NCBI RefSeq assembly: GCF_002834295.1
Contig: NZ_PISP01000001.1
Span: forward strand, 372,001-436,000
DNA length: 64,000 bases
Direction: 5' to 3'
Source: Rhodohalobacter barkolensis
GTDB lineage: Bacteria > Bacteroidota > Rhodothermia > Balneolales > Balneolaceae
The notes under the pieces were generated by a model. That model had not been told where the DNA came from and did no database searches. It saw nothing but the letters and a program-made list of their open reading frames with translations. Every line of letters begins with the position of its first letter. Within the stretch, counting starts at the first letter, position 1. A program made the translations under genes and the position numbers. Shown here in pieces: positions 11,375 through 19,490 of this stretch.

Positions 11375-11791
11375 ATGAGAAAGACAATAAAAATACTAAT
11401 ACTTGTACTGGCGGCCATCACGTTTTCTGCTGCGGATGTTATCGCACAAAATTTTGCCAGTGCAACGATGCAGGTTAAAGTTGAAGTGGTAAGTGGAAGT
11501 CAAATATCCAATAACCAAATTGCTGAACCTTTTTTGGTAAGGAATGAAGAGACAACATTTGGAGATTTTTCAATGAACCTTCCTAATGGTGTTGAGTTCA
11601 TTACAGAAGCTAATGAATCTGTAGAGATGAGTGATGGTTCAGATCAATGGAGTATGAAAGCAGAAATGAAGATCAATAGAGAAGACGACGGTACAGTTAA
11701 TGTGAAATTTATGACCCGGGACAATAAAAAAGAAAAACGTACGGGCACTACCTACCGCGGTAAACAAGTAGCTACGATTCAGTATCTATAG
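11375..11791 (+). CDS. Secreted DUF4402-like subunit candidate, convergent with the usher gene
   Basis: This 138-residue protein has a clear signal peptide (hydrophobic core about 7-21, cleavage probably after VIAQ near 25). A beta-rich mature part starts ATMQVKVEVVSGSQ and ends YRGKQVATIQYL. That opening valine-rich strand and a final YxG-x-beta-strand ending match the four secreted subunits encoded at 17113-19490, so I read it as a divergent fifth member of the same family. It faces the usher gene, with 18 bp between the two stops. The 283-bp gap upstream is AT-rich and holds the pdhC terminator and presumably this gene's promoter. The family link is by pattern only. Confidence 0.5.
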   Translation: MRKTIKILILVLAAITFSAADVIAQNFASATMQVKVEVVSGSQISNNQIAEPFLVRNEETTFGDFSMNLPNGVEFITEANESVEMSDGSDQWSMKAEMKINREDDGTVNVKFMTRDNKKEKRTGTTYRGKQVATIQYL

Positions 11792-11809: not shown

Positions 11810-14800
11810 TTAATCGAGAATGAAAATTTCGAGAGGACGCAGGTCTGCTTTTTTGTTCACTTCGTTAAAAATTTCGATAAATCTTTCCCACGACCTGAAC
11901 TCACTTTGATCGAATAACCGAATGGCTTGCTGATCGGTCTCAATAGAAAGTCGTCTATTGGTAGCTCTGAAATAGTCTGTACTTATCTCTGTGTAATCAT
12001 CAATGTCAGAAATTTCACCCAGATAAATTCTAAAAGTCAAATTGAGTGGCAGAGAGGTTTCAGGATCAACTTCAATTTCCTGATTATCAATAAAACCTTT
12101 ATCCCGTAATTTGTTTAAAGCTTCATTAGCCGAATCAAATTCTGAAAAAGGTCCGGCTATGACATCGAAGACCTGAGTCGTTTCAGTTTTCACAGATACT
12201 TCAATCTCAAGTTTATCCGATATCTCATTAGCTAAATCCCTTGCCTCTGCCTCTTGGTCAAACTGAGCAATTGGAATGATAAAACGTGTATAGGTTTCTT
12301 CTACAGGCATTCCTCGGTCTGTACAAAGTCCTACGATCGCATACTGGTTAAGCGGATCCTGATCCTTAAATAATATCAGCTGAAACAGGGCATCTGAAAT
12401 ATTATCAATAGGGGACGTTCTCAGACCAAATAGTTCAGTAGATTCATTGTAGACAAGGAATATCTCTTCGTCCAACCGATCACTTATCTGATTTGCTTTT
12501 GCAGATGCTTCCCTGGCATTACCAAAACTTCCAACCTGAATTGGATAGCTGCAGGTAAGACTTTCCTGAGCACGAATTGGAGCAAATTCCATTGACCGAA
12601 TGTCTGCAAAAGGATCATCATCAACTGTACTAAACTCAGCTTCTTCCAAAATTTCAACAACTTTTGGTTCATCGGTTTCCAATGTATCTGTATCTAAAGA
12701 ATCAGGGGTTAACCCGGTTCTATCGATAGGTTCATAGATAACAATATCACGGCCGGTTATGCCTGTCGCTTCTTTGATGTTTTGATTGATCTGTTTCAAC
12801 TCCTCAAGGTCACTTACCCGACTCTCTGTTACGACCTGAAACCGGCCATCTTCTGTTTGAATGATTTGTAGCTCTTCGTCTATTTGATCGCGGGTATTTT
12901 CTATAAATTGCCGGGCACTTTCCGAATCCATGAATGTTTCCAGACTAAGGGCGTATGTCAGATCTGTTTGCGGCGCAAGTTCGTCCTCATCCTCCAATCC
13001 GGCAAGCAGTTCATCATAATAACCTTCAAAAGCCAGTTCGTGAAGTGTGGATACTAAAGCGCTTCGATTTGTAAAAGGTCCGACAAATACTCTGAATAGG
13101 TTACTATCCCGGTCGGGGTAAATAAATACATTTTGGTCTTCCAGTTCAGCTTGAATACGATCTCTTAAACTATTGGCGCGTTCTCGCGAATCGTACGCTC
13201 CAACATGGATATGTAGATCTTCATCACTATCGGGTGAATCGCAATGATGAATCACTGAAAGCCTCCCAATATTTGAATTTCTAAAGTCAGATATCTGATT
13301 TGATAGAGAGTCAAAGTCATCGAATGGAGTCGTTCTGACCGTATACAGCTGATTAGAGGCATTGAAATCAATCTGAAGCTCAAGATCGGATAGATTCTCT
13401 GCATACGAAGCGAGGTCAGCAGCGTCAGTAAAACCTGTAAAGGTTCCCAGCTGAATGCTATAACTACAGTTTTCTTTGTAGTTGATATTAGAATCGGTAC
13501 CGTTTAAACCAATGAGTGAGGCTGCTGTTATAGGAATTTCTTCAATCGGTTCACGGCGTTGAGGATCATCAGCCGGCAGCATAGTCATTTCAAGACCTTC
13601 AACAAAGTCACCCTCTGCCAAAGCTTCAACCTTAAATTCAATAGCTTCTAGTTCGGGAGTGGCATTTAGAAAGTTAAGCTGCGATGGATCCGGCTCAATC
13701 ACATAGTCTCCCGGTGGAACCTCATAGGTGTAAAAACTCCCATCAGAAAACGTTCTGATTTCTTCTGTATGCGGTTGAACTCCTTCAGGAACATTGATCT
13801 GTTTCAAATAGAGTCGGAGTCCGCCGAGACCGGTCGTTGTGCCATCAGGCATTTGACGTGTAATCTTACCCTCTACAATGCCGGACATGTAAAGCGGGAT
13901 CTCTATCAGCTTGTACTGATTTGGATCCGTTACTATCGAAAATTGTTCAAATTGTGGTATGAGCAACGGATTTGTAATGGATCCCTTATTTACCGTCATA
14001 TTGTACTGTCGGTAGGGCTGCAGTTGGGAGATATAGTTGATTTCTCCCTTGGAGAATGTATTTCCGCCTGCACGATCAATCCGAATAGCATTTTCTGGTA
14101 TTAATTCATCTCCTTCGTCATAAGTGCCATTGTTGTTGTTGTCAACAAACATACGTGTTGCAATTCCGGCTCGTCCTACTTGCTGTCTGTTTGTAAAGAG
14201 TGCGTAACTGTGGTTTGAATCGTAACCGACCGATCCTCTCAAGCTTTGTGTGAGAGTGGTTGAATTGCGTACAGATCGTACCGTTGTGTTTGAGCGAATC
14301 GCATCGAAGTCGAATGTGAGTGAAAATCTGAAGAGGTTGAAATCACCCACAAAGTTTCTTCCCGCAGAAAATTGAAATCGTCCTCTTCTTGTTACATTTC
14401 TGCTGAATTGAATTTCAGCATCTTCAATTCTGGAAATGGATGGAATATAATTGGCTTGAGCCCTTACAAATACACTTCGTAACAGTGAAGGGATATCCCT
14501 GCTTCGGGAAAAATTATATGTAATAGCAGAGTTTAACCGGGCTACCGGTGTTGTTTGAAATGAAAGGTTTCCCAATTGAGTGTCTCTGTACCCAAACCGA
14601 AGGTTAGCGCGGCCTACTCTTGTATTCAGGTCAAGTCTGTAACGAGTAACCGCACCGGTTTGACGTTGTTCGTTGGTAACAGACCATCTTAGGAACAGGG
14701 GCCAGTCTGCAATGTTTACCGGAGTAAATAGGTTTGCACGGATTGAAGATTGATTTCTGCTGGTATTGTAAATTCCACCCTGTGTGTTGTAGTAAGTGTA

Positions 14801-16192
14801 ATCTAAATTAAAACTCGCGTTGTTGGGGTAAATAACACTTCCCGTTGCCCTGTAGAACGCATTATTGGCTGCCTCAAAGGAGAGCAGATAGCTGTCGGCT
14901 AATCGAGTGGATAAACCGGCAGTAAACGTTGGCAGATCATTGTGAAAGTCTTCAAAATATTCAACTCCGCCTGATGCAGTGAAGCGGTCAGTAAGTCCTG
15001 CACTTAAATTTGCTTTGGAAACCATTCCACGATTAGTGGAACCGGCAACAGGATTATCAACACGGCCGGCATTTATGGTATAGTTAACTTCTCCGGGCGG
15101 TAAAAAATTGAATGGTATTTGTAATCTTGCATCGCGGGTAGTCATTTCGCCGGTTGGACTGTAAGCTCGTATCGTGTAGCTTGACGAACCATACGTTAGA
15201 GGAATGGAAAATCGATAGATACCGCTGCCATCAGCCTGTGTAAAATCGACGAGGGTGTTGTTTCGATAGAGTTCAACTTCTGAATCAGGTTCTACTGTAC
15301 CTGAAAAAACGGTCTCATCGTAGATATATCTCGGTTCAATGGGTTCGTTCGTAAAACGGACTCCGGTATATGCAACCGGGGCAAGACCTTCAGCCGTGGA
15401 TTGTCCGGCAATAATTGTACTTATCCATTCATTATCCCGGATACCGTAGCGCCATCTCAATCCGCTGGATCGCAGAGATGATGCCGTTTCGGAATAACTG
15501 CCAAAAAGTGTTCCCTGTAGGTCACCGCCCACTAATTCCGTCCCGATGTTGGTACTGTACAAATAACTGTTACCCGATTCATTCAGGTTAGCCGTCAAAT
15601 TGTAATCGATAAATCCGGCATCGAAAATACTCCTGTTCCGATCAAAGCGAAGGGGATAGAAATCACGTCTGAGTTCTCGTTGAGTTCGTAGGAGTCGTTC
15701 CCGTCGTACTTCACGTTCTCTTTGCGCAACAACCGGCATGGTATCAGGCGATTCCAGCGAAACAGATAGATTGCTGAAGTCGATAATGAACTCAAGTTCA
15801 AAGAGCTGATATAGTATTTCAGGATCGAGGTAGTATCCAAATTCAGTAATGACATAGTCATCGGCGGTGAGGGTGATGTCCTGATCTGAGAACTGTGCCC
15901 GGCGTGAATCGAAATTGAGTATATATCTGCCTTCGCCAAGATAATTACCGGATATTGTGAATGCCGCCTGATCAATAGTTACATCAATCTGAAGGGCTTG
16001 GAAAAGGTCTGCTACGGAAAGATAAAATTGATCGCGTTCGTATAACGCTGAAACATATGTGTTAACGACTCCTTCATGACGAAACTGTAGAAATACCTCC
16101 TGGTCTGAACTTTGAGCCTCTGCCGAATCAAATATCGAAGGACTCAGGAACAGAAGAAAAAGATGTGTTATCAGAAGGCATTTTTTAATCAC
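11810..16192 (-). CDS. Fimbrial usher-like outer-membrane protein fused to six SPOR-like repeats
   Basis: The 1460-residue protein has a signal peptide (1-26, ending AEA) and a copper-amine-oxidase/usher-like N-terminal region. A plug/E-set-like module around 275-370 contains GTVEPDSEVELYRNN and ends FLPPGEVNYTINAGR, and a long Tyr/Arg-rich beta-strand region to about 660 should form the barrel. DNNNNGTYDEGDE near 682-694 and a prealbumin-like domain follow to about 870. From about 905 to 1459 come six roughly 75-90-residue repeats starting YSIQLGTF, LHIHVGAY, YALSLETF, YPIQVGSF, FIIPIAQF and TFRIYLGE, of which several end with VxxGPF. This is the SPOR pattern, a peptidoglycan-binding fold. 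Its start is GTG, overlapping the chaperone stop by 4 bases (GTGA), so translation is coupled. Usher identity is from pattern; the SPOR fusion is very unusual. Confidence 0.7.
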   Translation of the reverse strand: MIKKCLLITHLFLLFLSPSIFDSAEAQSSDQEVFLQFRHEGVVNTYVSALYERDQFYLSVADLFQALQIDVTIDQAAFTISGNYLGEGRYILNFDSRRAQFSDQDITLTADDYVITEFGYYLDPEILYQLFELEFIIDFSNLSVSLESPDTMPVVAQREREVRRERLLRTQRELRRDFYPLRFDRNRSIFDAGFIDYNLTANLNESGNSYLYSTNIGTELVGGDLQGTLFGSYSETASSLRSSGLRWRYGIRDNEWISTIIAGQSTAEGLAPVAYTGVRFTNEPIEPRYIYDETVFSGTVEPDSEVELYRNNTLVDFTQADGSGIYRFSIPLTYGSSSYTIRAYSPTGEMTTRDARLQIPFNFLPPGEVNYTINAGRVDNPVAGSTNRGMVSKANLSAGLTDRFTASGGVEYFEDFHNDLPTFTAGLSTRLADSYLLSFEAANNAFYRATGSVIYPNNASFNLDYTYYNTQGGIYNTSRNQSSIRANLFTPVNIADWPLFLRWSVTNEQRQTGAVTRYRLDLNTRVGRANLRFGYRDTQLGNLSFQTTPVARLNSAITYNFSRSRDIPSLLRSVFVRAQANYIPSISRIEDAEIQFSRNVTRRGRFQFSAGRNFVGDFNLFRFSLTFDFDAIRSNTTVRSVRNSTTLTQSLRGSVGYDSNHSYALFTNRQQVGRAGIATRMFVDNNNNGTYDEGDELIPENAIRIDRAGGNTFSKGEINYISQLQPYRQYNMTVNKGSITNPLLIPQFEQFSIVTDPNQYKLIEIPLYMSGIVEGKITRQMPDGTTTGLGGLRLYLKQINVPEGVQPHTEEIRTFSDGSFYTYEVPPGDYVIEPDPSQLNFLNATPELEAIEFKVEALAEGDFVEGLEMTMLPADDPQRREPIEEIPITAASLIGLNGTDSNINYKENCSYSIQLGTFTGFTDAADLASYAENLSDLELQIDFNASNQLYTVRTTPFDDFDSLSNQISDFRNSNIGRLSVIHHCDSPDSDEDLHIHVGAYDSRERANSLRDRIQAELEDQNVFIYPDRDSNLFRVFVGPFTNRSALVSTLHELAFEGYYDELLAGLEDEDELAPQTDLTYALSLETFMDSESARQFIENTRDQIDEELQIIQTEDGRFQVVTESRVSDLEELKQINQNIKEATGITGRDIVIYEPIDRTGLTPDSLDTDTLETDEPKVVEILEEAEFSTVDDDPFADIRSMEFAPIRAQESLTCSYPIQVGSFGNAREASAKANQISDRLDEEIFLVYNESTELFGLRTSPIDNISDALFQLILFKDQDPLNQYAIVGLCTDRGMPVEETYTRFIIPIAQFDQEAEARDLANEISDKLEIEVSVKTETTQVFDVIAGPFSEFDSANEALNKLRDKGFIDNQEIEVDPETSLPLNLTFRIYLGEISDIDDYTEISTDYFRATNRRLSIETDQQAIRLFDQSEFRSWERFIEIFNEVNKKADLRPLEIFILD

Positions 16193-17019
16193 TCAATCGT
16201 AAACGTTGTTCGCTCACTTACTTCAGAAATTTGCAGCAGGTTTTGCGATGAGATATCATTTCTTTGCGATTCAAACATAGTTTCTACAGAGTATTGACCG
16301 GAAGGCCAGTTTGACGTATCAAATTCTACACGCTGATTGTTGCGAAAATAGACAGAGGTGGATGAACGCCTGGAATCAACTTCCTGACCATTGGAGTTCA
16401 TAACCCGGGTCCTTACACTTCCGATGAAAGGAGAGTTACCGGTGCGCTCTACATCAGTAATAACAACTAACCGGTCATCATCAACCATAGCTTCTGAACG
16501 GTGAACTTCCAATCCCGTTTCAGCACTTCCGTGCTGAACCAACACTGCAGTGACCTGGTCAATCTGGAAAGAGACCTGAGCGGCGACCTGTCCTTCAGCA
16601 ACCTCACCAATTGGCGGAGTAAGCTGATTAGAGGAGACACGCATTCGGGTCCAATACATTCCCGGATCAGAATTTTGAGGAATTCGTCCGACTAAACGAA
16701 CTGTTTGTCGCTCATTCGGCTGTAATACAAAAGTGGTTGGAAAAGCCCGTAAATGAGGTACAAGGGAAAATTTTTCTTCAGCTTCAGAATCTTCATAATT
16801 CAGAAAAACTCTTCCATCTTCATCCGTAGCAGGGTAGGCAAACTCGAAACCGAGTCGAACTTCTACGGCACTGTTTGATGGATTGGAGACATAGAATGAT
16901 CCGACCTTACTGTTTTTATCGAGAAAAACGGCGGTAGGAGAGATCGTTACCTGAGCCTGTACGGAAAAAGCAAAGAGCAACAGCAGAGCAAAAGGAAGTG
17001 ATAGTAGACGAATTTTCAT
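16189..17019 (-). CDS. PapD-like periplasmic pilus chaperone
   Basis: This 276-residue protein has a signal peptide (MKIRLLSLPFALLLLFAF, cleavage after VQAQ near 23). The mature start VTISPTAVFLDKNSKVGSFY, then VSNPSNSAVEVRLGF, then LQPNERQTVRLVGRIP around 115-130, follow the first immunoglobulin-like domain of fimbrial chaperones. A second beta-rich domain completes the boomerang layout. Such chaperones hold subunits in the periplasm by donor-strand complementation and deliver them to the usher. The gene sits between the terminator that follows the main subunit gene and the usher gene, with which it overlaps by 4 bases. The classical conserved Arg/Lys anchor pair cannot be assigned with certainty by eye. 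Confidence 0.75.
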   Translation of the reverse strand: MKIRLLSLPFALLLLFAFSVQAQVTISPTAVFLDKNSKVGSFYVSNPSNSAVEVRLGFEFAYPATDEDGRVFLNYEDSEAEEKFSLVPHLRAFPTTFVLQPNERQTVRLVGRIPQNSDPGMYWTRMRVSSNQLTPPIGEVAEGQVAAQVSFQIDQVTAVLVQHGSAETGLEVHRSEAMVDDDRLVVITDVERTGNSPFIGSVRTRVMNSNGQEVDSRRSSTSVYFRNNQRVEFDTSNWPSGQYSVETMFESQRNDISSQNLLQISEVSERTTFTIE

Positions 17020-17062
17020 GAACGTGTCATTTTATTCAACAAATATTGCTGAACTTACGAAA

Positions 17063-17092
17063 TAAAAAAACCCCACGAAATAGTGGGGTTTT
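17063..17092 (-). terminator. Intrinsic terminator between putative major subunit gene and chaperone gene
   Basis: Read on the minus strand, the stem is CCCCAC/GTGGGG extended by A-T pairs, with loop TATTTC and a following run of seven T. It lies 20 bp past the stop at 17113 and before the chaperone start at 17019. It would let the subunit gene be expressed at a much higher level than the chaperone and usher, which would then depend on read-through or their own promoter. Confidence 0.85.
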
Positions 17093-17112
17093 AACATATT
17101 GAAGTGTAAGTC

Positions 17113-17625
17113 TTAAATATTGTAATTTACTTCAAATACAAGTGGTAGACCACCCCCGGTATTTGTTGAGTAATTACCTGAAGCTGTAGGAGATTGGAGT
17201 TGTCCACCAATATCCAAGGTTAAATCACCACCACCAGATACGTTGTATCCTGTACCGTCAACGTCTGCTGTTACATCATTACCACCATCAAAAACTCTAT
17301 GGGTGAATGTAAGTTGATCTCCGTCAGCATTTTCAAGAACAGCATTTTGAGTAACTTCTACGATATACTCTTGTCCATCTGCGGTAATTGTGAGTGAACC
17401 TGCTGAAGGGGCACTTGCGTTTGAACTTGTAATATCACTTCCATTTGCCTGAACTTCTGCTACCGAACCTTGCTGAACATTTCCGAATGAAACATCAGTA
17501 CCAGCAACATTCAATTCGGCTAAAACATCTGCTGTAACACCAATTTCAGCAGTATTTGTTTGTGCAAAAACCGTCCCGGCTGAGAGTACAAATAGAGCAA
17601 TTATGAGAGAGCTTAATTTTTTCAT
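17113..17625 (-). CDS. DUF4402-like secreted subunit, putative major pilin
   Basis: This 170-residue protein has a signal peptide cleaved after VFAQ near 22. The mature part is rich in Ala, Gly, Thr, Asn and Val and low in Cys. The N-terminal strand EIGVTADVLAELNVAGTDVSFGNVQQG and C-terminal LPLVFEVNYNI follow the DUF4402 pattern, in which the first and last strands bracket an immunoglobulin-like fold. I call it the main subunit because it has its own terminator directly downstream and the most regular composition. It also has a 169-bp leader region separating it from the preceding subunit genes. Family membership is inferred from pattern. Confidence 0.7.
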   Translation of the reverse strand: MKKLSSLIIALFVLSAGTVFAQTNTAEIGVTADVLAELNVAGTDVSFGNVQQGSVAEVQANGSDITSSNASAPSAGSLTITADGQEYIVEVTQNAVLENADGDQLTFTHRVFDGGNDVTADVDGTGYNVSGGGDLTLDIGGQLQSPTASGNYSTNTGGGLPLVFEVNYNI

Positions 17626-17726
17626 TTTTTCGATGATTTTATTGTTGTTTAAAAATCTTTAGAGCGATTCTTTTTTGTTTCTACAAACAAGATAAGTGGT
17701 TGTCTGACTTACCCCAAGTTAGAGAG

Positions 17727-17738
17727 CTTTAATTAAAG
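17727..17738. promoter_or_regulatory. 12-bp palindrome in the leader region of the putative major subunit gene
   Basis: CTTTAATTAAAG is a perfect palindrome located about 100 bp upstream of the ATG at 17625, in the only sizeable gap of the subunit gene group. It may be an operator, or chance in AT-rich DNA. No promoter consensus was recognised with confidence. Confidence 0.25.
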
Positions 17739-17794
17739 GGCTATAATACCCGCTTAATACCGTTAGAGCCACTTAATGCAAGCCCGTTCGGTAA

Positions 17795-18367
17795 CTACTC
17801 ATAAATCACAGTCAGCACCACTTCACCGGTGTAGACGCCTTCAGGCACATTGCCAATATCTATATTTCCAAACACATAAATATAGAGTGAGCTCCATGCT
17901 GAATCCGGATTGTTTGATGGAGACTCCAATACAAGGCTTTGTCCGATATCGTTCAAAGGAGTACTGAGCTCAAAATCTTGTAGATCAAAATTTGTATATG
18001 CCGCCTGCAGTTCGATGGGGATTGTATCCAGGATATCCGGGTTTTCGTGCTGTAGTTCACGATCAGATTCCATTTGAATAATTAACCTTTGGGTTTGCAA
18101 GGCGCGAACTCGAAAGACTCCCATATTCGGAGAGCCGGGTGGAATTGTCTGAAGCCCCATTCCTGTGATGACCTGACCAAAATCGAGACTGCGCTCAACA
18201 GTAGTTTCAACTTCAGGCTCTACATCAATCTGAATGTTTAAAGATTGAGATTGAGCAATGATGGGTAACAGACTCAATAAAAGCGAAGCGAGCAGAAATA
18301 AAATAGGATATGCTTGAAAATAGTTTGAGCGAATATCAGAGAATGTAGAAAAATAAACCTTCTTCAT
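17795..18367 (-). CDS. DUF4402-like secreted minor subunit
   Basis: This 190-residue protein has an unusually long N-region before a hydrophobic core LFLLASLLLSLLP and a cleavage site near IAQS (about 41). The mature start LNIQIDVEPEVETTVERSLDFG and the end YTGEVVLTVIYE follow the same first-strand and last-strand plan as the neighbouring subunits. It starts 2 bp after the stop of the next upstream gene, so the two are surely co-translated. It is probably a minor or tip subunit of the surface fibre. No catalytic motif is visible. Confidence 0.6.
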   Translation of the reverse strand: MKKVYFSTFSDIRSNYFQAYPILFLLASLLLSLLPIIAQSQSLNIQIDVEPEVETTVERSLDFGQVITGMGLQTIPPGSPNMGVFRVRALQTQRLIIQMESDRELQHENPDILDTIPIELQAAYTNFDLQDFELSTPLNDIGQSLVLESPSNNPDSAWSSLYIYVFGNIDIGNVPEGVYTGEVVLTVIYE

Positions 18368-18369
18368 AT

Positions 18370-18987
18370 CTATCTGTACTCCACTGTGACCGTAATGGTG
18401 CCTCTGTAAGAACCCGCGACTACATTTCCGACATCAATTTGTCCATAGAAATAGAGATAAGCGGTTTCATTCACTAAAGATTGATCAAAATCTCCGGTGG
18501 GCGGTGTGGGTGGAGGCCCCGGTGGTCGCTGTCTGCGAGAAAGTATGGGAAACCGGGCATTACCGGTACTTAAGGAAGGTGTGTTTGCAATACCAATGGG
18601 TCTAGCAGATGATACATTATTCTCTCCGCTGTTTGTGAATGCCGCTTCCAGTGTAAACGGAATGGATCGCTGAGGGTCTGAATCATACGTCGGATTACCA
18701 TCCAGTAGTAATTTACCTTCAGCAGTGATATCTACATCCACGTCTAAATATTTTACCCCAATTATGGCCAGTACCTTAGAGTCGATCAGTTCAACCTGAT
18801 GTATCCCACTGTTGCTGTTAATCGGGCCTTGAAATACTAAATCTTCAAGACCAATATCTTCCAGTTCTATGGTATAGGTGCCATACTGGCCAAACTCGAT
18901 ATCCTGTGAAAGCGCACTATTTACAGATAATCCAATCAGTAGGACTGCAATGAACGCTGTTTTGATATGTTTGAAAATTAATATCAA
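18370..18987 (-). CDS. DUF4402-like secreted minor subunit with proline-rich loop
   Basis: This 205-residue protein has a signal peptide (hydrophobic core about 11-22, cleavage after ALSQ). The end YRGTITVTVEYR matches the other subunits. Near residues 160-172 a proline-rich stretch RPPGPPPTPPTGD is inserted in a predicted loop, a feature the others lack; it could be an exposed spacer or binding loop. The only start compatible with the signal peptide is TTG at 18985-18987, since no in-frame ATG follows near the N-terminus. The gene is 5 bp after its upstream neighbour and 2 bp before its downstream neighbour. Confidence 0.6.
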   Translation of the reverse strand: MILIFKHIKTAFIAVLLIGLSVNSALSQDIEFGQYGTYTIELEDIGLEDLVFQGPINSNSGIHQVELIDSKVLAIIGVKYLDVDVDITAEGKLLLDGNPTYDSDPQRSIPFTLEAAFTNSGENNVSSARPIGIANTPSLSTGNARFPILSRRQRPPGPPPTPPTGDFDQSLVNETAYLYFYGQIDVGNVVAGSYRGTITVTVEYR

Positions 18988-18992
18988 CTCAA

Positions 18993-19490
18993 TCAGATAT
19001 ACTCTATTTCGATTGTAAATTCACCTTGATAGCTGCCAGGATTTACGTCACTCAGATCTATGGTTCCACCTATCCAGAAGTAAAACTCACCCTCTTCGTT
19101 AAACTGCAGATCACGAATATCCTGATCCAGAAGTTCTGCGGTCTCCTGATCATCAATGCCATTACCGGCTACTTCATAATTAAAAAAGATGATGCCTTCG
19201 CCATCTAAGTTAACCAGTTCGCGTTGGCGGATGTAGTCAACCCTGAATTCTGCATTGGGCGTTCCGCGTGCGACCATCTTGCCGGATCGCTCACCAAAAA
19301 TCGGATCAACCCGTATTTCGGAACCTTCCTGCTCAATATCATCAAAATCTACGGTGTTGATGGTAATCATCTCCACGGTTCCGGCTACGGTGGCTGAGAC
19401 AGAAATACTCACGTTTTGCTGAGATTGAGCAAAAGCAAACAGTGGGAGCAGAGCTAAAATGAACAGTCCTAAAAGTCTTTTGTAAATCAT
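18993..19490 (-). CDS. DUF4402-like secreted minor subunit, first gene of the fibre operon
   Basis: This 165-residue protein has a signal peptide ending FAFAQ (about 22), a first strand QNVSISVSATVAGTVEMI and a final strand YQGEFTIEIEYI, as in the neighbouring subunits. It begins the group of four leftward subunit genes, 90 bp after the menE stop. No clear terminator separates it from menE on this strand, so some read-through from the menaquinone genes is possible. Confidence 0.6.
   Translation of the reverse strand: MIYKRLLGLFILALLPLFAFAQSQQNVSISVSATVAGTVEMITINTVDFDDIEQEGSEIRVDPIFGERSGKMVARGTPNAEFRVDYIRQRELVNLDGEGIIFFNYEVAGNGIDDQETAELLDQDIRDLQFNEEGEFYFWIGGTIDLSDVNPGSYQGEFTIEIEYI

Follow-up and report, generated by a model that had tools for sequence, protein, structure and literature searches.

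Why should the outer-membrane pore of a fibre-assembly system end in repeats of a fold that binds glycan? The question is raised by six ORFs on the minus strand (11810–19490) of the window, i.e. the 64,000-nt stretch of Rhodohalobacter barkolensis DNA analysed here (NZ_PISP01000001.1, 372,001–436,000), which encode four small exported proteins, a putative chaperone (276 aa) and an usher-like protein of 1460 aa. In the ORF list of the window, all six lie at the positions and on the strand given in a preliminary description of this DNA. To our knowledge, ushers have been treated as pores with neither an energy source nor a wall anchor of their own. Among the matches listed in the open-licence PMC literature, as far as the excerpts go, none describes an usher combined with either SPOR domains or FliG/MotA. 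The answer favoured here, with a probability of about 0.72, is that the locus is a chaperone-usher fibre system of Rhodohalobacter-like Balneolaceae whose pore is clamped to peptidoglycan via a SPOR tail.

The cluster begins with a 165-aa fibre subunit candidate (18993–19490), followed by candidates of 205 aa (18370–18987), 190 aa (17795–18367) and 170 aa (17113–17625), the putative periplasmic chaperone (16189–17019) and the usher-like gene (11810–16192), which has a GTG start that overlaps the chaperone stop. This order of subunits, chaperone and usher recurs across many relatives and so is not due to chance. On the plus strand, an exported 138-aa ORF (11375–11791) converges on the usher gene; homologues are found beside ushers in several loci and, judging by eye from its ends, it is possibly a fifth subunit-like protein.

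The 1460-aa product is predicted by fold to be an outer-membrane usher of the FimD/PapC type. Its identity was settled by fold because recognition by sequence family gave nothing or weak matches, with no Pfam usher family found in the ORF up to E 10. An AlphaFold2 (AF2) model of residues 26–901 (alignment of 60 sequences; pLDDT 89.9) was compared with the PDB by Foldseek, where the top 19 matches are all FimD or PapC (best E 1.9e-29; about 11% identity), and VIA-align placed it on FimD with Z 23.1 (627 residues aligned, rmsd 8.4), the next unrelated entry reaching Z 13.3. The barrel region (residues about 190–658; 14219–15625), delimited by DSSP of the model, has 24 strands, with a six-strand plug inserted after strand 6 (DSSP strands counted by eye). 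By its position in the model, read by eye, the plug domain covers residues about 287–361 (15110–15334), a region with a weak Pfam match to SdrD_B (residues 305–353) and, using a profile of 60 relatives, a weak collinear match to PapC (E 0.03). Two predicted periplasmic C-terminal beta-domains follow (residues about 659–873; 13574–14218). The VIA alignment spans model residues 146–845; the N-terminal domain is beta-rich in the model, and the VIA rows to solved ushers begin only at residue 146. The usher barrel with plug proposed in the preliminary description is thus borne out by the model.

The 276-aa protein is likewise predicted, by fold only, to be a PapD-like chaperone with two Ig-like domains. 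Its AF2 model (pLDDT 89.8) matches chaperones of the PapD family, the best of them at E 2e-8, in agreement with what had been proposed (Foldseek: CfaA, 2.0e-8; EcpB, 8.1e-8; PapD, 2.9e-7; CsuC, 6.2e-7), and VIA gave FimC and YadV at Z 13.2–13.3, although the top match in both searches is an Enterococcus WxLIP protein rather than an usher chaperone. By sequence, the Pfam PapD_N match of the window protein (E 0.19) is below threshold, PapD_N was matched in 5/36 chaperone relatives (best E 0.0014) and a search against PDB profiles gave no match.

The four small exported proteins are candidate fibre subunits from their position and weak family matches. All four had been described as DUF4402-like; this holds in weak form for the 165-aa and 205-aa candidates (E 0.00095 and 0.0075; 20.3 and 17.4 bits for the two matches, below the cut-off of 25.2), while Pfam found no DUF4402 match in the other two. 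The 190-aa candidate has no Pfam match and the 170-aa candidate none above cut-off. Relatives of the 170-aa, 190-aa and 205-aa candidates occupy the same place in other loci, and the 165-aa candidate was also assigned by alignment. Signal peptides were recognised by eye, as were alternating N-terminal and conserved C-terminal patterns, which bear on a possible donor-strand completion between subunits. When all six frames of the window genome were searched with DUF4402, nothing was matched at E 0.001, and one candidate compared with PDB profiles gave nothing or weak matches.

The remainder of the usher is occupied by its tail, in which Pfam SPOR (PF05036) is matched at E 4.4e-26 (91.5 bits; cut-off 21), with four stretches passing. 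A SPOR model built from the family detects five repeats, at residues 911–964 (13301–13462), 994–1046 (13055–13213), 1080–1133 (12794–12955), 1216–1268 (12389–12547) and 1304–1357 (12122–12283). A degenerate sixth (residues about 1385–1440; 11873–12040) gives no match alone, and is proposed because residues about 1207–1460 align collinearly with a three-repeat cassette of MotB from relatives described below (71.6 bits). The tail therefore appears to consist of two collinear cassettes, each with three SPOR repeats, the sixth of which is degenerate, in agreement with the 'about six SPOR-like repeats' previously placed at residues 905–1459. The preliminary description had made its interpretation depend on an usher fold and on a SPOR profile match, and both were found. 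Against PDB profiles, the RlpA SPOR alone was matched by the tail (E 0.065), and a single SPOR stretch gave no match.

In the available part of PMC6895207, Q270 and three arginines of the RlpA SPOR domain are described as holding denuded glycan; columns in the usher repeats were matched to these residues by eye. On this basis Gln and Arg are kept together only in the repeats that open the two window cassettes (SPOR 1 and SPOR 4). The Gln is replaced by His in SPOR 2 (with a basic residue kept nearby), by Ser in SPOR 3 and by Pro in SPOR 5, and is absent from 4/6 repeats, the sixth having been judged by eye. As a point against clamping, affinity may then be low, or the ligand another.

The usher core is present in 63/118 related genomes (single copy in the window genome) and in 93/244 genomes of the class. 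Within the genus, distribution is patchy, with an usher in 11/28 genomes including that of the window. Contigs carrying the core are labelled Balneolota, Algoriphagus, Kapabacteria, Ignavibacteria, Gemmatimonadota and Neomarinimicrobiota, and named isolates with family members include Rhodohalobacter halophilus, Gracilimonas and Algoriphagus. Over the usher core, R. halophilus is the closest named isolate (80% identity), and a MAG labelled Chitinophagaceae has 85% identity. That no sequence-family model recognises the usher, and that sequence matches of the chaperone and subunits are weak, counts against a clamped pore, as do this patchiness within the genus, the first rank of WxLIP for the chaperone and the unmatched N-terminal domain of the usher.

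Family membership, fold and make-up of the tail are what the analysis establishes directly. Four tail states were found among 95 usher rows, namely SPOR (one to five detected repeats), OmpA, TPR-like and none, using tail models built from the same usher sequences as were scored. OmpA is found at the C-terminus in 10/95 rows (model built from those tails plus MotB), and Pfam OmpA was matched in two such tails tested (E 3e-10 and 1.8e-11). OmpA domains bind stem peptides along the whole wall. The TPR-like tail is about 100 residues long, with Pfam TPR_2 matches below cut-off in two tested (E 0.0037 and 0.0045). Ushers of the family in Algoriphagus and Neomarinimicrobiota have no tail, and fibre assembly therefore does not depend on anchoring, a further point against the clamp.

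Downstream of TPR-tailed ushers come first a gene with FliG domains and then genes for a TPR lipoprotein, MotA and MotB. A profile of 11 of the FliG-domain proteins matches solved FliG over its middle and C-terminal domains (E 1.4e-21), and gives E 0.006 for the FliG N-domain and E 0.068 for the FliF ring. Among the same proteins Pfam recognises FliG_C in 11/11, FliG_M in 10/11 and FliG_N in 8/11, and the FliF C-terminal family weakly in 5/11 (best E 0.005); a hydrophobic stretch between the FliF-like and FliG parts was noted by eye. The gene resembles a fusion of FliF with FliG, a claim that is weaker for the FliF half. MotA was recognised at E 1.6e-18 in one locus tested. MotB contains a plug and an OmpA domain, to which three SPOR repeats are added in many loci of Balneolaceae, and its transmembrane Asp is at the same position in the rows read by eye. 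MotA and MotB are found beside 16/22 TPR-tailed ushers; of the other six, contigs end first in L036 and L047, and L037, L039, L066 and L161 have none in the fetched flank. TPR-like sequence is common to the usher tail and the motor lipoprotein.

The window represents the motor-less, SPOR-tailed state: in its genome (97% complete) neither the rotor nor MotA was matched at E 1e-5. A further genome (G040) carries both a SPOR-tailed usher (L083) and a separate FliG/MotAB locus with no usher (L106), and the mutual exclusion of SPOR tail and motor thus applies to the locus, not the genome. A recent origin of the tail, by a deletion that joined the usher to the SPOR-bearing end of a neighbouring MotB, was considered and rejected, as most usher cassettes best match other usher cassettes and not the MotB cassette of the sister locus. 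One usher cassette (L067) is an exception, with MotB cassettes as its best match, and an old common origin of usher and MotB cassettes is possible.

Tails are exchanged within the family and the TPR-like tail is linked to the motor. Among the 87/99 ushers that were scored, a FliG gene follows 0/36 with SPOR tails, 0/9 with OmpA, 0/20 without a tail and 22/22 with TPR tails (Fisher p 3.7e-18 for FliG presence with wall-binding vs TPR tails, kinship ignored). This count leaves out L110 (a fragment of the already counted usher L037), L054 (a broken second copy in G079) and L158 (too little usher core). In an earlier scoring of 83/95 rows with a complete 3′ end and at least 1.5 kb downstream, L110 and L054 were the two 'no-tail' rows with FliG; L110 resembles a TPR tail by BLAST (65 bits), and L054 is without a tail by the tail models. 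Predictions made beforehand from ORF length alone were correct in 14/14 loci, 7/14 of them independent, as 8/15 prediction regions were contigs already examined.

On a tree of the usher core, motor state changes at least nine times (11 in a second tree without ten long-branch rows, which were kept in the count); both were quick LG+G4 trees, with a program warning about long branches and unevenness of composition for the first of them. In nine independent pairs differing in motor, the wall-binding tail differs in the opposite direction in 6–7 and never in the same direction (p 0.016 by sign test, ranging to 0.031). The fetched flank contains DLAT or PDHB for 17 ushers with a SPOR tail and eight that are motor-linked (absent in the other 70/95 rows), and both tail states thus share one chromosomal address beside pyruvate dehydrogenase genes.

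One tentative reading, given slightly less than even odds, is that two states swap at this address: a clamped usher (SPOR or OmpA) and a driven one, in which a rotor turned by MotAB, as an ion motor of the flagellar type, would rotate or otherwise work the fibre. In the driven state, the TPR-tailed usher would be coupled via the TPR lipoprotein to the FliF-FliG-like rotor, the TPR-like tail meeting either rotor or lipoprotein, and the wall anchor would have moved to MotB. Alternatively, the tails and FliG/MotAB genes may be passengers of a recombining chromosomal block, their linkage then being silent on joint function. Whole blocks could indeed be swapped beside the pyruvate dehydrogenase genes, where both states are found, and the FliG/MotAB loci lacking an usher indicate that such a motor can exist without one. 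However, repeated changes of motor state accompanied by opposite changes in the wall-binding tail, agreement of tail and downstream gene in 87/87 ushers counted, and the TPR-like sequence shared by usher tail and motor lipoprotein all argue against mere passengers, which we regard as unlikely.

Among SPOR-tailed ushers, binding-residue columns were counted in the 33 whose 3′ end is complete, four cut at the 3′ end being left out. The Gln is present in one or more repeats of all 33, and 31/33 have one repeat combining Gln with a basic residue at either of two columns. Repeats that are first in a cassette, marked by a preceding Cys, keep Gln in 21/23 and Arg in 20/23 cases, while the remaining usher repeats keep Gln in 51/81; in MotB, 32/33 SPOR repeats have it. 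Repeat number and linker length vary widely among usher tails. Wall binding by the tail is probable because these residues are conserved and because OmpA takes the same position elsewhere in the family. The earlier suggestion that the tail might fix the pore in place gains support because that OmpA module is a wall-binding one unrelated to SPOR.

In the proposed mechanism, subunits would cross the inner membrane and then be held by the PapD-like chaperone, and the usher barrel would polymerise them into a fibre, as the folds and the known pathway suggest. The SPOR tail, presumably periplasmic and hanging from the usher C-terminal domains, would hold denuded glycan strands, with the leading repeat of each cassette contributing most, and the pore would be clamped to peptidoglycan while the fibre pulls on the usher.

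The tail might instead be a targeting device, placing fibre assembly at the septum or new pole without serving as a mechanical anchor; a tie to division sites was also among the suggestions of the preliminary description. SPOR domains bind peptide-stripped glycan that is enriched at septa (according to the part of PMC6895207 available), and retention of the binding residues in first repeats fits this use. However, a septum-specific role would not predict OmpA at the same place in other members, for which reason anchoring is favoured over septal targeting, and MotB of motor-linked loci, where an anchoring role is natural, carries a similar cassette; targeting is accordingly rated a little less likely than the passenger explanation above. 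Least probable is that the SPOR repeats no longer bind the wall and are now spacers or protein-interaction modules, e.g. for periplasmic partners, since loss of Gln from most window repeats and many non-first repeats elsewhere, and the wide variation in repeat number and linker length, are outweighed by its retention with Arg in first-of-cassette repeats and by replacement of the tail elsewhere with an unrelated wall-binding domain.

An usher family that exchanges built-in, putatively wall-binding tails for a TPR-like one together with a FliG/MotAB-type motor makes it directly testable how a platform for fibres is held in place or driven, and bears on the recruitment of rotary motors to new machines.

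Compared with FimD/PapC ushers and FimC/PapD systems, the window locus has the same predicted barrel with plug, two periplasmic C-terminal domains and PapD-like two-domain chaperone, with subunit-like genes in the same cluster. It differs in that neither usher nor chaperone is recognised by profiles at threshold (identity of the usher being about 11%, as above) and in that SPOR, OmpA or TPR-like tails follow the C-terminal domains in this family. The archaic and alternate pili (Csu, ECP, CFA/I) are approached in some respects: CfaA, EcpB and CsuC are among the better matches of the chaperone model, two window subunits are weakly DUF4402-like and sister ushers have weak TcfC E-set matches (E 0.12–0.14). 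Unlike these, the present family has several subunit types per cluster and tailed ushers. The SPOR repeats belong to the same family as those of RlpA, FtsN, DamX and DedD, and first usher repeats keep the Gln and Arg of the glycan site, but here they form part of an outer-membrane usher, where they come in threes and sixes.

In the T9SS, the motor is GldLM, not FliG/MotAB. A putative peptidoglycan-binding module in a secretion machine is likewise found there in PorE, for which the available part of PMC9127263 gives TPR, propeller, carboxypeptidase-regulatory and OmpA_C domains; however, PorE is a separate protein and not the pore, whereas here the wall-binding module is on the usher. The motor-linked relatives share with the flagellar motor (FliF, FliG, MotA, MotB) the FliG domains, preceded by a periplasmic part that is weakly FliF-like, as well as MotA and a MotB that keeps the transmembrane Asp. 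Unlike in the flagellar motor, a single protein encoded next to an usher combines the FliG and FliF-like parts, and MotB often has extra SPOR repeats. These relatives may be more than a variant of the chaperone-usher kind.

In L066, a motor locus of related genome G068, the usher is TPR-tailed, the rotor reading frame downstream is broken by stop codons, and both MotA and MotB are absent between the usher and the next gene; this motor is decaying, among SPOR-tailed kin. L110 and L111 (genomes G072 and G075, respectively) each encode a TPR-tailed usher followed by a rotor-like gene and a TPR lipoprotein, and MotA/MotB were not found adjoining this pair. At L161, from a MAG whose label (Sphingobacteriaceae) places it outside Balneolota, an usher with two TPR-like stretches in tandem precedes the rotor and TPR lipoprotein, with neither MotA nor MotB seen beside the usher locus.

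A second motor locus, comprising five genes and without an usher, was identified in L106, L107 and L108, all from genomes of the family to which R. barkolensis belongs. It encodes a FliG-like rotor, a protein of 357-392 aa (no Pfam match for the L107 copy, the one examined), a TPR lipoprotein, MotA and MotB. Neighbouring genes, where examined, look housekeeping or regulatory.

Among 11 rotor proteins examined with Pfam, one has a LysM match (E 2.1e-5), assigned by eye to L186 (537-2852, + strand). In the ushers of L075 and L077, low-complexity linkers of roughly 300-400 residues join the usher core to the SPOR cassette, and are perhaps long enough for the cassette to reach the wall.

Upstream of the subunits, motor locus L079 carries the final portion of a large protein (2-2647, + strand), in which both an Invasin_D3 domain and a type IX secretion tail are present; a long ORF occupies this position in several further loci. 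In the window, an exported 138-aa ORF (11375-11791, + strand) converges on the usher gene. Its homologues adjoin ushers in SPOR and motor loci alike (e.g. L061, L064, L065, L066, L072 and L195), and its ends, by eye, resemble those of the subunits; it is perhaps a fifth fibre protein.

The top match of the structural model of the window chaperone (16189-17019, - strand) is an Enterococcus WxLIP protein (Foldseek E 2.8e-9; VIA Z 13.9), and the Pfam model for WxLIP peptidoglycan binding matches two of the 36 chaperone relatives in set A3. WxLIP proteins and PapD-like chaperones are possibly akin.
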